A stretch of 41,609 nucleotides of DNA from assembly GCA_030831965.1 (NCBI GenBank), contig JAURJZ010000055.1, positions 1-41,609 on the forward strand. The letters are read 5' to 3'. The stretch comes from Verrucomicrobiota bacterium (GTDB lineage Bacteria > Verrucomicrobiota > Verrucomicrobiia > Opitutales > UBA953). Below the pieces are notes generated by a model that ran no database searches, had not been told where the DNA came from, and worked only from the letters and a program-made list of their open reading frames with translations. Below are positions 24,794 to 30,932 of this stretch, piece after piece. The first letter of the stretch is position 1. The number at the start of each line of letters is the position of its first letter. The position numbers and the translations under genes are program-made.

Positions 24794-26833
24794 TCAGCGG
24801 GCCTCGGCGCCCCCGTCGGGCAGCTCGGCCCAGGCGGCGAGCATGGCCCGGGCGACGGGACCGGCGGTCGCCCCGCCCCAGCTGGTCATGTCCTCGCCCT
24901 CGACGCAGACGACGAAGGCGACGCGGGGCCGGTTGGCGGGCGCGAAGCCGACCGCCCAGGCGAGGTGGGCCTTGGCGCCGTCCTTGGGGTACTCGGCGGT
25001 GCCGGTCTTGGCGGCGACGCTGAGCCCGGCGATGGCGACGGGCCCGGCCGTGCCCTCGTCGACGCAGCGGGTCATGCCGTCGAGCAGCGCGCGGCGCTCG
25101 GCGGCGGTGATGCCGAGCGGCTCGCCCCCGTGGGTGAGGGAGCCTCGGCCGGGATCCGCCACGAGGGTGAGGTTGGTCCGGGTGCGATGGGCGGCGACCG
25201 ACGCGGTCAGGGCCCCCATGTGGAGCGGCGTCGTCAGCAGGTAGCCCTGCCCGATGGAGAGGTTGGCGGTGTCGCCCTGCGACCAGGGACCGTGGCCGCG
25301 CCGCCGCTTGTAGGCGGGATCGGGCACGACCATGCCCCGCGAGACCTGGCTGGTCTCGGGCTTGCCGTCGTGCGCGCTGACGAGGAGGGGCTCGGCGAGG
25401 CCGAGGCGGCGGGCCTCGGCGGCGAGGGCCTCGGGGCCGACCCGGAGCCCGACGATGTAGTTCCAGACGTTGACCGACACGATGAGCATCTTCTCGAGGT
25501 CGGTCGGCCCGTAGCCGCCGCTGATGTGCTCGGGGAAGACGCGGTTGCCGACCAGGAGGCCGGGGCCGCAGTCGATGACCTCGTCGTGGCGCACGGACCG
25601 GGTGCGCAGGCCGGCGAGCGCGGTGACCAGCTTGAAGGTGGAGCCGGGCGGGTAGAGGCCCTGGGTGGCGCGGTTGAGCCAGCCGCCGCGCTCGTCGACC
25701 GAGTTGTAATACTCCTGGCTGACCCGGCCGGACATCTGGTTGGGGTCGAAGGCGGGGGTGCTGGCGAGGGCGAGGATCTCGCCCGTGTCGATGTCGATTA
25801 GCGCCGCGGAGCCGGGCAGGGAAACGCCGTTGGCGTCGCGGGTGGCGCGGAGGGCGGCCTCGGCGGCGCGCTGCACGCGGAGGTCGAGCGAGAGGTTGAT
25901 GTGCGTCCCCTGCCGGGGCGGGGATTGCTCGAGCAGGGACTGGCGCTCGCCGGCGATGTTGCGTTCCCAGACCTGGTGGCCGAGCTGTCCGGAGAGGATG
26001 GCGTCGAACGACTGCTCGACGCCCGTCGCGCCGCGGTGGCCCGCGCTCACGGTGAAGCTGTTGGCCCCGAGGTTGTGGCGCTCGGCGAGGCGCCGGCGAA
26101 GCTCGCGCTCATCCTCGGACTCGCCGTCGGCGGAGGCCTTGACGTGGCCGAGCACGTGGGCGGCGAGCTCGCCCTCGGGGTAGTCGCGGACGACCTCCGG
26201 CTCGAGGGAGAGCGGCTCCTCGGCGCCGGTCGGCAGCTGCTCGACGAAGCGGGCGAGCCGCCGGGAGGGATCCTCGCCCTCGATCCTCAGGTCGGGGATG
26301 AGGGGGAAGGGGAAGGGGCGGCGGTCGCGGATGTGGCGCGCGAGCGCGACCTCGTTGACCCGGAAGGCGGCGGGGCGTCCCGGTTCCCCGAGGGCGCGGT
26401 TCACGCGGTCGAGGTGCCGCTGGGCGACGAGGCGGCGGGCCTCGGCCAGGACCTGCTCGATGTCGGGCTTGTAGAGGGAGGGCGCGGGCGCGGCGAGCCT
26501 CTGCGCGGCGATGATCCGGCGCTGCTCGGCGCGGATGGCGCGGCGGACCTTGCCCAGGTCGAGGCTGACGCTCCACTTCACCCGGTTGTCGGCCAGCACG
26601 AAGCCGTTGCGGTCGAAGATGCGGCCGCGGGTGCCGGGAATCAGGGTGGCGTGGCGGACCTGGCGCTCGTGCTGCTCCTGGTATCCCTCGGATTGGAGCA
26701 CCTGGCGGTAGCCGAGCCCGGCGGCGAGGACGATCACCCCGGCCGCGACGAGGCCCGCCTGCTGGAGGATGCGACCGCGATGGCTCCTCCCGGAGGGGAT
26801 CTTCTCCACCGAGGCGCCGGACGTCCCGCTCAT
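24794..26833 (-). CDS. mrdA: Penicillin-binding protein 2 (elongasome transpeptidase)
   Basis: A 679-residue class B PBP that cross-links peptidoglycan during lateral growth. One membrane helix (about residues 24-44) anchors it. The dimerisation domain contains RGRIFDRNGFVLADN. The transpeptidase domain has STFK (Ser398, Lys401), SVN (453-455) and KTG (609-611). The start at 26833 overlaps the mreD stop by 4 nt (ATGA), so it is the last gene of the mreBCD-mrdA operon. rodA, the usual glycosyltransferase partner, does not follow. The N-terminal pedestal region carries an Arg-rich insert around residues 96-175. Confidence 0.95.
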   Translation of the reverse strand: MSGTSGASVEKIPSGRSHRGRILQQAGLVAAGVIVLAAGLGYRQVLQSEGYQEQHERQVRHATLIPGTRGRIFDRNGFVLADNRVKWSVSLDLGKVRRAIRAEQRRIIAAQRLAAPAPSLYKPDIEQVLAEARRLVAQRHLDRVNRALGEPGRPAAFRVNEVALARHIRDRRPFPFPLIPDLRIEGEDPSRRLARFVEQLPTGAEEPLSLEPEVVRDYPEGELAAHVLGHVKASADGESEDERELRRRLAERHNLGANSFTVSAGHRGATGVEQSFDAILSGQLGHQVWERNIAGERQSLLEQSPPRQGTHINLSLDLRVQRAAEAALRATRDANGVSLPGSAALIDIDTGEILALASTPAFDPNQMSGRVSQEYYNSVDERGGWLNRATQGLYPPGSTFKLVTALAGLRTRSVRHDEVIDCGPGLLVGNRVFPEHISGGYGPTDLEKMLIVSVNVWNYIVGLRVGPEALAAEARRLGLAEPLLVSAHDGKPETSQVSRGMVVPDPAYKRRRGHGPWSQGDTANLSIGQGYLLTTPLHMGALTASVAAHRTRTNLTLVADPGRGSLTHGGEPLGITAAERRALLDGMTRCVDEGTAGPVAIAGLSVAAKTGTAEYPKDGAKAHLAWAVGFAPANRPRVAFVVCVEGEDMTSWGGATAGPVARAMLAAWAELPDGGAEAR

Positions 26834-27345
26834 GGCTCGGCCAGCTGGGGAAAGCCGGCCCGATCGAGCAAGGCGGCCTGGAACGACCCGGCCAGCGGAT
26901 GGAGGACCAGCCCGAGGAGGCCGGCGAAGGCCGCCTGCACGGGAAGCGCCCAGAGCCAGGCGCCCCAGCCGACGACGCCGTGGTCGAGGGAGGCGAGGGG
27001 AACGACGAGCGCGCAGGCGGCGAGGTTGGCGGCCGCCGCCACCAGGTGGGCCCGGCGTCGGACGAGCAGGTGGCGGTTGGCCTGGAGCACCGCGGCGAGC
27101 GCCATGAGGACGAAGGCCGCCGAGCCGTGCGGGAGGGGGCGGCGCGACTCGTAGGCGAGCCCGAGGCAGGCGGCGAAGAGCAGCGCCTGCCAGGGTCGCA
27201 GGCGCAGGAGGGGCGTCGAGAGGAGGAGTCCGGGCAGGAAGACCAGGAGGTGCCAGGGCGCCAGCAGGTCGCCGAGCAGGTCCCCGGCCAGCAGCCAGGG
27301 GTAGGAGGCGGCCAGGGCGACGAGCCAGCCGAGGGAGGGGGTCAT
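26830..27345 (-). CDS. mreD: Rod shape-determining protein MreD
   Basis: A 171-residue hydrophobic protein with about five membrane helices, consistent with MreD in size, topology and gene order. Sequence conservation in this family is weak, so the assignment rests mainly on its place between mreC and mrdA with 4-nt overlaps at both ends. It probably helps couple cytoplasmic MreB to MreC and PBP2. The start at 27345 (MTPSLGWLVALAASYPW) is set by the overlap with mreC. Confidence 0.85.
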   Translation of the reverse strand: MTPSLGWLVALAASYPWLLAGDLLGDLLAPWHLLVFLPGLLLSTPLLRLRPWQALLFAACLGLAYESRRPLPHGSAAFVLMALAAVLQANRHLLVRRRAHLVAAAANLAACALVVPLASLDHGVVGWGAWLWALPVQAAFAGLLGLVLHPLAGSFQAALLDRAGFPQLAEP

Positions 27346-28211
27346 CGCAGCTCCTCGTAGGGTTGGGGTTGCGTCGGGATCAGGACGCCCACCTCGCGGA
27401 GCGAGAGGAGGTCGGCCGCGGGGGTGAAGACGCCGTTGCGATAGGCGCCCCCTGGCGTGTCCTCGAGCCCGGGCGAGAGGGTGCCGATCCTGAGCCCGGC
27501 CGGGTAGAGGCCGCCGAGCCCGGTGGTCACCACCTTGGCGGGTTGCCCGGCCGGAGGGCTGTAGGTGTAGGGCAGGTAGGTGACGCGGCCGCGGGGCGAG
27601 GCGAAGGGCTGGGGCGACTGGCCCTCGACGAACACCATGCTCCGCCTGCCCTCGGGGGCGTCGTCGCCCTCGATGAAGGCGGAGCAGCGGAACCCGGGGC
27701 TGGTGACGAGCTCGACCTCGCTGGTGTTGACGTGGACGGCGCTGACGCGGCCGACAACCCGGTCGCCGAAGACCACGGGGCAACCCTTGCGGACGCCGTC
27801 GATGCGCCCCCGGCGGATGGTGAGGCTCGACCACCAGGCCCCGCTCTCGCGCGCGGCGACGCGCGCGACCAGGGTGCGGAACTCGGGAAAGGCGGGCGCG
27901 GCGAGCATGGAGCGCAGCCGGCGATTCTCCGAGGCGGCCGACTCAAGCTCGGCCACGCGGAGCTCGAGGGCCGCGTTGGCCCGGGCCAGGTCGCGGCCGG
28001 CGGCGGCCAGCTCGGCGGCGCCGGAGGCCTTCATCTCCGCGGTCAGCACGAGGTCGCGGGTGCGGGAAAGCAGGCTGAGCGAGGGCGCCTGCAGCTCGGC
28101 GAAGGTCTCGCGCGTGAAGAGGCGCCCGGCGGCGGGAAGGAAGACCCAGGCGACGAGGAGCAAGGCCAGGGCCGTGATCGACCCCCTCAGTTGGCTGCCA
28201 GGGGCGGACAT
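27342..28211 (-). CDS. mreC: Rod shape-determining protein MreC
   Basis: A 289-residue bitopic protein. An N-terminal membrane helix (SITALALLLVAWVFLPAAG) is followed by a coiled coil (about residues 60-105, rich in Ala/Glu/Leu) and the double beta-barrel periplasmic domain. That domain carries SLTIRRGRIDGVRKGCPV, DRVVGRVSAV and GLGGLYPAGLRIG motifs. MreC organises the elongasome and activates PBP2. It starts 11 nt after the mreB stop and ends with a 4-nt overlap into mreD. The C-terminus is short, ending PTQPQPYEELR. Confidence 0.93.
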   Translation of the reverse strand: MSAPGSQLRGSITALALLLVAWVFLPAAGRLFTRETFAELQAPSLSLLSRTRDLVLTAEMKASGAAELAAAGRDLARANAALELRVAELESAASENRRLRSMLAAPAFPEFRTLVARVAARESGAWWSSLTIRRGRIDGVRKGCPVVFGDRVVGRVSAVHVNTSEVELVTSPGFRCSAFIEGDDAPEGRRSMVFVEGQSPQPFASPRGRVTYLPYTYSPPAGQPAKVVTTGLGGLYPAGLRIGTLSPGLEDTPGGAYRNGVFTPAADLLSLREVGVLIPTQPQPYEELR

Positions 28212-28222
28212 GCCGGTTCGGC

Positions 28223-29236
28223 TCAGTCCCCGCCCCAGCGGGAGGAGTTGGCGAGGATCTTGCCGGTGCCGTTGGCGACGGCGCAGAGGGGTTCCTCCCC
28301 GACGAAGACGGGCAGGCCGGTGGCCTCGGAGATGAGCCGGTCGATGCCGCGGATGAGGGAGCCGCCGCCGGCGAGGGCGATGCCGCGGTCGACGAGGTCG
28401 GCGGCGAGCTGGGGCGGGCAGCGCTCGAGGGAGGCCTTCACCGTGTCGATGATGGCGTTGAGGTTGTCCATCAGGGACTCGCGCACCTCCTGGGAGGTGA
28501 GGGTGAGCTGGCGGGGGAGCCCGGTCACGGAATCCCGCCCCTTGACCTCCATGGTGAGCTCCTGCTCGAGCGGGTAGGCCGACCCGATCTTGATCTTGAT
28601 GTCCTCGGCGGTGCGCTCGCCGATGATGAGGTTGTAGGAGCGCTTGATGTAGTTGGTGATGGCGCTGTCGAACTCGTCGCCGCCGACGCGGATGGAGCGG
28701 GCGTGGACGATGCCGCCGAGGGAGAGGATGGCGACCTCGGTGGTGCCCCCGCCGATGTCGACGATCATGGAGGCCGCCGGCTCCTCGACCGGCAGGCCGA
28801 CGCCGATGGCCGAGGCGACGGGCTCGGGAATGGTGATGACGTCGTCGGCGCCGGCGCGGTAGGCGGAGTCCATCACGGCTCGCTTCTCCACCGCGGTGAT
28901 GCCGTAGGGCACGGCGATGACGACGACGAGGTTGGTGAAGAGGGACTTCTTCGCGACCTTGCCGATGAAGTAGCGGAGCATGTGCTCGCTGATCTCGAAG
29001 TCGGCGATGACGCCGTCCTTCATCGGGCGGAGGGCGAGGATGTCGCCTGGCGTGCGCCCGAGCATCATCTTGGCGTCGTTGCCGACGGCGATGGGCTTGC
29101 GGGTCGAGGTGCGGATGGCGACCACGGAGGGCTCGCGGAGGACGACGCCGCGGTCCTTGTGGAAGACCAGGGTGTTGGCCGTGCCAAGGTCGATGCCGAT
29201 GGCGTGGGTGAACAGTCCGGGCAGTCGCTTGAGCAT
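28223..29236 (-). CDS. mreB: Rod shape-determining actin MreB
   Basis: A 337-residue bacterial actin that forms membrane-associated filaments guiding wall growth. The ATPase motifs are intact: phosphate 1 AIGIDLGTANTLVF, phosphate 2 IVDIGGGTTEVAIL, and adenosine GIALAGGGSLIRGID. The N-terminus LKRLPGLF gives an amphipathic membrane-binding segment. ATG 29236 is chosen over the ATG eight codons earlier because it matches the family length and lies just after a promoter-like sequence. First gene of the mreB-mreC-mreD-mrdA operon. Confidence 0.97.
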   Translation of the reverse strand: MLKRLPGLFTHAIGIDLGTANTLVFHKDRGVVLREPSVVAIRTSTRKPIAVGNDAKMMLGRTPGDILALRPMKDGVIADFEISEHMLRYFIGKVAKKSLFTNLVVVIAVPYGITAVEKRAVMDSAYRAGADDVITIPEPVASAIGVGLPVEEPAASMIVDIGGGTTEVAILSLGGIVHARSIRVGGDEFDSAITNYIKRSYNLIIGERTAEDIKIKIGSAYPLEQELTMEVKGRDSVTGLPRQLTLTSQEVRESLMDNLNAIIDTVKASLERCPPQLAADLVDRGIALAGGGSLIRGIDRLISEATGLPVFVGEEPLCAVANGTGKILANSSRWGGD

Positions 29237-29251
29237 GGTGAAACCTAGGTT

Positions 29252-29282
29252 TGTATACACTTGGGAACCAAGGGGGTTGCAA
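29252..29282 (-). promoter_or_regulatory. Putative promoter of the mre operon
   Basis: On the minus strand TTGCAA (29277-29282) precedes TATACA (29252-29257) by 19 nt, or TGTATA (29254-29259) by 17 nt. The box lies about 15 nt from the mreB ATG. This AT-richer stretch stands out locally, but the spacing for the better -10 is long. Confidence 0.4.
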
Positions 29283-29322: not shown

Positions 29323-30375
29323 TCAGCCGCTGACAAAGCCCACCGCGACGACGTGGCGGCAGCCCGGCAGCTCGCGGACCTTGGCGAGCAGGGCCCTGGC
29401 GTGGAAGGCCGCCTCGGCCCGGACAACCGGGCTCTCGCAGTGGATGAGCAGCTTGCCGTCGGGCAGGATGCGAAGGGGGGCGCTCCGGCGGGCGAGGGGA
29501 GGGGGGAGGAGGCGGCCCCAGGCCTCGCTGATGGCATGCTCGGGGATGGGGCGGTCGACGCCCAGGCGACGGACGGCGGCGCCGATGGCCGCGTCGAGGG
29601 TGCCGACCTCGCGCTCGGTCGAGCGGCCGGACTCCTCCGGGTGACCGCGGAGGTTGGCGAGGAGGTTGCGCGCCTCGCGGCGGAGGCGGGTGCCGCGCGT
29701 CGCGCCCAGCATGCCGTCGCGCACGACGCCGGGCAGGCGCGACAGGAGCCGGACGGAGGGGAAGGGGTCGCCGGGCCTCGGTTCGCCGACGAGGATGGCG
29801 CGGGCGCCCGCGGCTAGGGCGCCCTCGGCGTCCTCGCGCCGGCTGTCGCCGACATGGATCATCTCGGCGGGCTGGATCCCGAGGGCGGTCGCCATGCGCG
29901 CGAACGCGGCGGGCGAGGGCTTCGATTCCCCCAGGCAGGCGGCGTCGATGAACGGCAGGAGCCCCTTGGCCCGGATCACCGGCGCCAGGCGGTCGTCGGC
30001 ATTGGACAGGACGCCGATGCGCAGCCCGAGGAACCGCAGCTGCGCGAGGGCGGCGAGGGCCCCGGAGGCCAGGCGCCAGGCCGTCGGCTCGGCGAAGGCC
30101 CTCCAGCACGCGTCCTGGACTTCGGCGAGCGCGCTCCGAGGCAGGCTGTCCCCGAAGGTCCGGTCGACGACCTCATCCCAGCGCTCGCGGTGGCTGCCCG
30201 GGGCGGCGAGGGCGGCGAGCGCCATCGGGAACCTCCGGTCGAGCGCCTGCGGGTCGATCCGGTGTCCGAGCCCGCGCGCGACCCGGGCGTAGGTTTTGCC
30301 CACGCTGGGGTGGGGGTGGAGGAGGGTGCCCGCCAGGTCGAGGGAGACGGCTGCCGGGCGGGTGACGGCGGACAT
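29323..30375 (-). CDS. HAD-superfamily phosphatase fused to a DciA-like (DUF721) domain
   Basis: A 350-residue single reading frame with two modules. Residues 8-215 are a HAD hydrolase of the REG-2/HDHD3-like type: motif I is DLAGT (Asp13, with Ala15 where most HADs have the second Asp), motif II LSN (Ser124), motif III ESKPSP (Lys152), motif IV HVGDSRREDAEGA (Asp177, Asp182). Residues 230-350 resemble DUF721/DciA, the ancestral replicative helicase loader: an Arg-rich start (RREARNLLANLRG), then ISEAWGRLLPPPLARRSAP, LLIHCESPVVRAEAAFHA and LPGCRHVVAVGF. An internal ATG at 29712 (Met222) could also give a free 129-residue DciA-like protein. The product probably acts in the cytoplasm; what the phosphatase contributes is unknown. 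It lies just upstream of the mre operon, in the same direction. Confidence 0.85.
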   Translation of the reverse strand: MSAVTRPAAVSLDLAGTLLHPHPSVGKTYARVARGLGHRIDPQALDRRFPMALAALAAPGSHRERWDEVVDRTFGDSLPRSALAEVQDACWRAFAEPTAWRLASGALAALAQLRFLGLRIGVLSNADDRLAPVIRAKGLLPFIDAACLGESKPSPAAFARMATALGIQPAEMIHVGDSRREDAEGALAAGARAILVGEPRPGDPFPSVRLLSRLPGVVRDGMLGATRGTRLRREARNLLANLRGHPEESGRSTEREVGTLDAAIGAAVRRLGVDRPIPEHAISEAWGRLLPPPLARRSAPLRILPDGKLLIHCESPVVRAEAAFHARALLAKVRELPGCRHVVAVGFVSG

Positions 30376-30408: not shown

Positions 30409-30482
30409 ATACCTCGGGCGAGCGCCGCAGGTCCTGCTTGAAACAGCGGCCAGGCCCGTGCATTCTCCCCGCCAACCCCGCG

Positions 30483-30932
30483 ATGAGCCGCCCCTTGCTC
30501 CTCCTTTTGTCGGCCTGCCTCCTAGTTGGCTGCGGCGCCCGCCCGTCGCCCGCCAATTCCCTTGCCGGCGTGCGCACGCTGACGCTGGCCTCCGTTTCCG
30601 GCGTGAGCGCCTCGGAACTCTCCCCGGGCCTCGGCCTCGACCTTGAGTCCGCGCTGAGGCGCTCCCTCGCCGTCAGGGGGTACCAGATCCGGGACACGGA
30701 GGGGGGCGAGGCCTCGGTGCGGGCATCCTGGTTCCAGGAGGCGCGCCTGCTGCCCGATGGGCGCCGGGAGGTCCACCTCGGGATCTCCCTTTCCATCTTC
30801 GACCGTTCGGGCGAGCGGGTCTTCTCGGCGCGCTCGGCCCGCACGACCCCGGCTGGGCAGTGGAACGGCGACCGGGTCGCCGCCGAGGTGTCCCATCTGC
30901 TGAGGAGCCTGCCCGAGTCGGGGGCGCCCTGA
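30483..30932 (+). CDS. Small lipoprotein of unknown function
   Basis: A 149-residue lipoprotein with signal peptide MSRPLLLLLSACLLVGC, where Cys17 in LVGC is the lipidation site. The mature domain has alternating beta-strand-like segments (VRTLTLASVSGVS, GYQIRDTEGGEASVRASWF, REVHLGISLSIFDRSGERVF). It loosely recalls the DUF4136-type lipoprotein fold, but I cannot assign a family. It may sit in the outer membrane. ATG 30483 is set by the signal peptide. The sequence just upstream (30436-30472) resembles that before hisF. It converges with panE, with one base between the stop codons. Confidence 0.8.
   Translation: MSRPLLLLLSACLLVGCGARPSPANSLAGVRTLTLASVSGVSASELSPGLGLDLESALRRSLAVRGYQIRDTEGGEASVRASWFQEARLLPDGRREVHLGISLSIFDRSGERVFSARSARTTPAGQWNGDRVAAEVSHLLRSLPESGAP

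Follow-up and report, generated by a model that had tools for sequence, protein, structure and literature searches.

A reading frame that joins a HAD-family hydrolase to the helicase loader DciA in one family of Opitutales

Introduction

DciA is an essential loader of the replicative helicase. It is a basic polypeptide that is found in genomes with DnaB and without dnaC or dnaI, and there is still debate about how it works and with which partners. The locus described here raises the question of whether a DciA can be encoded as one protein with a hydrolase of the haloacid dehalogenase (HAD) superfamily and, if so, how the two came together and whether the hydrolase has any part in helicase loading. 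The gene lies in a window (the whole stretch of DNA analysed) of 41,609 nucleotides. Its fused frame, domain content, distribution in related genomes and possible functions are considered in turn.

Gene structure and domain content

The gene runs on the minus strand from an ATG at 30375 to a stop codon at 29325-29323 and encodes 350 aa with no internal stops; the plus strand of 29323-30375 was rejected as its coding strand. The features of the locus are as follows:

29323..30375, minus strand: fused HAD-DciA gene of 350 codons and a stop codon (open reading frame and Pfam; frame shared with 56 further genomes in the family)
29761..30348, minus strand: HAD hydrolase module, HDHD3/REG-2-like, aa 10-205, with a helical cap at about aa 20-95 (PF00702, TIGR02252, 3k1z, conservation)
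29602..29760, minus strand: linker together with DciA's basic N-terminal extension, aa 206-258 (AlphaFold2; alignment with stand-alone DciA N-termini)
29326..29601, minus strand: DciA/DUF721 KH-like domain, aa 259-350, with an invariant Trp286 (PF05258, 7ykm, 8a3v)
29710..29712, minus strand: in-frame internal ATG (Met222), conserved only in the window's genus
28223..29260, minus strand: mreB, the next downstream gene, 62 bp from the fused gene (MreB_Mbl, 6e-140)

Each half of the protein passed its curated Pfam cut-off. PF00702 (HAD hydrolase) matched aa 9-190 with 66 bits against a required 26.4 (7.6e-18), and PF05258 (DciA) matched aa 260-336 of the full protein with 39.5 bits against a required 24 (6.6e-10), scoring 42.1 bits when the C-terminal 137 residues were searched alone. 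These profile matches confirm the original prediction, made by eye, that a HAD and a DciA-like module share one 350-codon frame. The same continuous frame was found in 56 other genomes, so a frameshift or assembly artefact is ruled out by a total of 57 unbroken frames. In the AlphaFold2 model of the full protein (pLDDT 88, pTM 0.63), two domains are folded and the linker is poorly ordered, aa 244-258 (pLDDT < 50) being probably disordered.

Median pairwise dN/dS, obtained by a simple counting method over 98 pairs, was 0.27 for the HAD half and 0.20 for the DciA half, values that indicate purifying selection on both halves and no more than that. Scans for promoters and terminators found none. 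A close-alignment search of genome contigs returned relatives among uncultured Opitutae/Opitutales, mostly metagenome assemblies (e.g. 'Opitutia bacterium UBA953'), and a genome-contig search with the window protein as single query gave no match.

The DciA half and the replication genes of the host genome

The C-terminal module is a DciA and more than DUF721-like, as family, PDB-profile and fold comparisons agree. It matched 7ykm (D. radiodurans DciA) in the PDB profile search (E = 7e-7), and an AlphaFold2 prediction for the C-terminal 121 residues, on which the KH-like fold was checked, matched solved DciA structures in Foldseek, with 8a3v (V. cholerae DciA in complex with DnaB; 2.7e-4) and 7ykm (3.6e-4) ahead of DnaA domain I. 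The match to DnaA domain I agrees with the similarity between DUF721 and the N-terminal domain of DnaA described in the literature (PMC5720831). After the HAD, the fusion keeps 'FSRxxxNLIANFRGLPED', the aligned N-terminus of stand-alone DciA; therefore the whole of DciA, extension included, has been appended to the HAD. Net charge was +8 for aa 225-350, and its median was +9 in fused DciA halves compared to +6 in stand-alone relatives.

The host genome (1.85 Mb, 98.35% complete), that of an uncultured Verrucomicrobiota of Opitutales type, possessed a single DnaB_C protein, and the fused copy was its only DciA, the search for a separate dciA having found none. Its only PF01695 (IstB/DnaC-type) match above the cut-off sits in the DnaA gene, which was recognised by reading its translation, and no separate DnaC/I-type loader was found above threshold in this 98.35% complete genome. 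As the sole loader candidate in the genome, the DciA half most likely acts on DnaB as DciA loaders usually do.

The HAD half and its conservation

HAD superfamily hydrolases are characterised by four motifs, which comprise a nucleophile Asp, a Ser/Thr, a Lys and an acidic metal site. In the window protein these residues are D13, S124, K152, D177 and D182, all at the positions assigned to them beforehand. The best NCBIfam model of the HAD half was TIGR02252 'REG-2-like' (3.5e-31), and as its 108.5 bits lie below the curated cut-off of 155.2, the domain is labelled 'REG-2/HDHD3-like' only. The best PDB match was human HDHD3 (3k1z; profile E = 3.4e-38, Foldseek E = 1.1e-15). Across the 52 full-length fusions, D13 was conserved in 49, K152 in 49, D177 in 46 and D182 in all 52.

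In DxD HAD phosphatases, the second Asp of motif I acts as general acid/base. It is replaced by Ala15 in the window protein, as the original prediction had noted, and by A, T, S, F or V across the family. The Ala does not mark a change in catalysis that came with the fusion, since the unfused orthologues inspected all lack this Asp too (with A, V, G, T or F in its vicinity), which makes its absence a trait of the subfamily. With this residue missing throughout the subfamily, phosphatase activity of the HAD is uncertain.

Four species of one genus (g5; G009, G015, G021 and G030) have lost the HAD nucleophile and the cap, and retain a HAD remnant with an open frame into DciA. All fused HADs without D13 among the 52 full-length sequences belong to this genus (G009, G021 and G030). 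The four loci (L226, L223, L225 and L227, respectively) are natural pseudo-enzyme versions of the fusion.

Distribution and origin of the fusion

Among the 61 genomes of the family (f1; G000-G060), dciA was recovered in 57 and was fused to the HAD in all 57, which consisted of 52 full-length sequences, G015, G032, and three sequences cut at a contig end and starting inside the HAD (G023, G043 and G054). No dciA was found in G024, G027, G040 and G060, which are 75-86% complete. The gene was stand-alone in 27 other families of the order, and the longest DciA frames outside f1 among the matches listed (G113, G188, G233 and G249) contained no HAD fused to them. When 288 genomes of the phylum were searched with a profile of the entire fusion, full-length matches came only from f1 and from G111, whose match contains a TAA (see below), ruling out independent HAD-DciA fusions elsewhere within this set. 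Most outgroup genomes, among the matches listed, possessed a normal dciA and either an unlinked HAD or none.

An unfused HAD orthologue was present in 36 sampled genomes outside the family, a count that leaves out the weak match G123. In at least 11 of the 36, it lies beside dciA on the same strand, directly in ten and with a glycosyltransferase gene between in G087; G188 and G205 are two further cases of a HAD orthologue beside dciA. Families f5, f8, f15, f18, f20 and f21 have the unfused HAD as a same-strand gene upstream of dciA, and in f3 a single gene separates the two. The two genes lie within a few tens of bases in G074 and G077, overlap as ATGA (HAD stop and dciA start) in G064, and share one frame in G111 (L121:4441-5574), a near-fusion in another family in which only a single TAA and a short spacer separate them. 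In the HAD tree, all fused sequences split from all unfused ones (support 100/97), and the tree of the DciA half, too short to be well resolved, is by itself no proof of a single origin. As had adjoins dciA, overlaps it or stands one TAA apart from it in other families, the fusion came from an operon pair, and the simplest reading is that the two became fused at the base of the family.

Gene neighbourhoods

In the window, mreB is followed by an mreC-like sequence and then a PBP2-type transpeptidase (5e-42; stretch 24794-29260). Among the loci read, the fused gene directly precedes mreB only in the window's genus. A small divergent ORF of 164 aa at 30438-30932, with a lipoprotein-like start and no Pfam match, is conserved next to the fused gene in several relatives.

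Neighbours of the unfused HAD included a lipid A acyltransferase/glycosyltransferase and an MsbA-like ABC exporter (f3, f5), and glycosyltransferases (f3, f15, f18, f20). This adjacency to envelope-glycan genes suggests an envelope sugar-phosphate as the HAD substrate, an indication weakened by families f2, f21 and f24, in which the HAD has different, non-glycan neighbours. One tight same-strand cluster (L054:1215-7142, G064) comprised a family 9 glycosyltransferase to which a lipid A acyltransferase is joined, followed by an MsbA-like exporter, an MFS transporter, the HAD and dciA.

Functional interpretation

The favoured explanation, with a probability of roughly 0.62, is that of a bifunctional protein in which the DnaB loader DciA and an HDHD3/REG-2-like HAD that keeps its own reaction come from joined neighbour genes, the join mainly fixing their co-production. 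Two co-oriented neighbours, had and dciA, were joined via loss of the intervening stop and start. The DciA half, with its basic N-terminal extension and KH-like core, would load DnaB, and the HAD half, tethered to it by a flexible linker, would continue its own hydrolysis, probably on a sugar-phosphate-like envelope-glycan substrate if the neighbours of the unfused orthologues are a guide. The main effect of the join may then be that HAD and DciA are always produced together, and, judging from the decay of the HAD in one genus, the loader would work without HAD catalysis. Selection may also act on the join itself, as the fusion has been kept almost universally.

It is rather doubtful that the HAD acts instead as a sensor or regulator of helicase loading, such that a metabolite (e.g. 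an envelope sugar phosphate) bound or turned over alters the action of DciA on DnaB or ssDNA and initiation tracks envelope or carbon status. Such a role would fit the retention of the fusion in 57/57 genomes with dciA, the conservation of the catalytic residues in nearly all fusions, the recurrence of the unfused had-dciA neighbourhood in seven families and the position of the fused gene before mreB in the window's genus. It would also fit the finding that Caulobacter needs the N-terminal extension of DUF721, which here forms the link to the HAD, for loading as well as for binding to ssDNA (PMC12547741). However, the four species that lost the HAD nucleophile and cap keep DciA, which argues that HAD catalysis is dispensable and any regulatory coupling not essential; the linker is partly disordered, and a normal dciA with an unlinked HAD or none is the rule in the outgroups listed. 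The tie of replication initiation to a small-molecule or phosphoprotein signal, suggested in the original prediction, would likewise be hypothetical. The most specific form of the regulatory reading, in which an envelope-glycan sugar phosphate is sensed or processed by the HAD, which thereby gates DnaB loading as a direct metabolite-to-initiation switch inside the helicase loader, is more doubtful still.

It is improbable that the HAD, with only vestigial catalysis, now serves DciA mainly as an N-terminal extension with a structural or DNA-binding role. N-terminal extensions of DciA do differ between lineages and assist loading (PMC12547741), genus g5 retains a half-HAD remnant in frame without the nucleophile, and the second Asp of motif I is absent. 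Outside the four species, however, the nucleophile, the Lys and the metal-binding residues are nearly invariant, which indicates selection for catalysis, and the net charge of the HAD part is only +2, so DNA binding by it is not indicated.

Least probable of all is that free DciA is also translated from Met222, leaving the fusion partly nominal: the internal ATG noted in the original prediction does exist, and its codon is kept in 6/6 fused genes of the window's genus, but it is not conserved across the rest of the family, no Shine-Dalgarno-like motif was found upstream of it, four fused genes have no ATG, GTG or TTG in the corresponding region, and the decayed HAD remnants keep their frame open, having gathered none of the stops expected if DciA were made separately, so that the fusion is most likely the form in which DciA is made and the proposed release of a free form is not upheld.

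The favoured bifunctional protein would matter in several respects. A permanent join of DciA to a metabolic-type hydrolase in one family ties the loader naturally to a pathway that may be its partner. Taken together, the states observed (linked, overlapping, one stop apart, fused and decayed) make a clear case of an essential replication gene gaining and losing a fusion partner, and with this series any influence of HAD activity on helicase loading could be tested directly. If the HAD did gate DnaB loading, the natural loss-of-function species would serve as controls.

Comparison with known systems

No mention of DUF721 together with a haloacid dehalogenase, or of a HAD-DciA fusion, was found in the literature searched, although Blaine et al. 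(2022) may already list the architecture. The founding paper mentions occasional Zn fingers as the only additions to DciA (PMC5109545). Three papers describe extensions that vary and may be N- or C-terminal, with a Zn finger in Cyanobacteria (PMC5109545; PMC12547741; PMC9912922), and one of them, PMC9912922, cites Blaine et al. (2022) for the wide range of architectures in which DciA occurs.

The C-terminal half resembles the DciA/DUF721 (PF05258) loader in its Pfam match, fold, conserved Trp and basic N-terminal extension, but in place of standing alone it carries about 205 HAD residues at its N-terminus. The N-terminal half resembles the HDHD3/REG-2-like HADs (TIGR02252, 3K1Z) in a motif I without the second Asp and a helical cap after motif I; the 3K1Z protein, at 263 aa, is too short to include a DciA, whereas the HAD in the window is fused to one. 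Compared with the lineage-specific architectures of DciA, in which the additions are extensions, the extension here is a complete enzyme domain. The novelty of HAD-DciA is one of DciA architecture and does not amount to a system of another kind.
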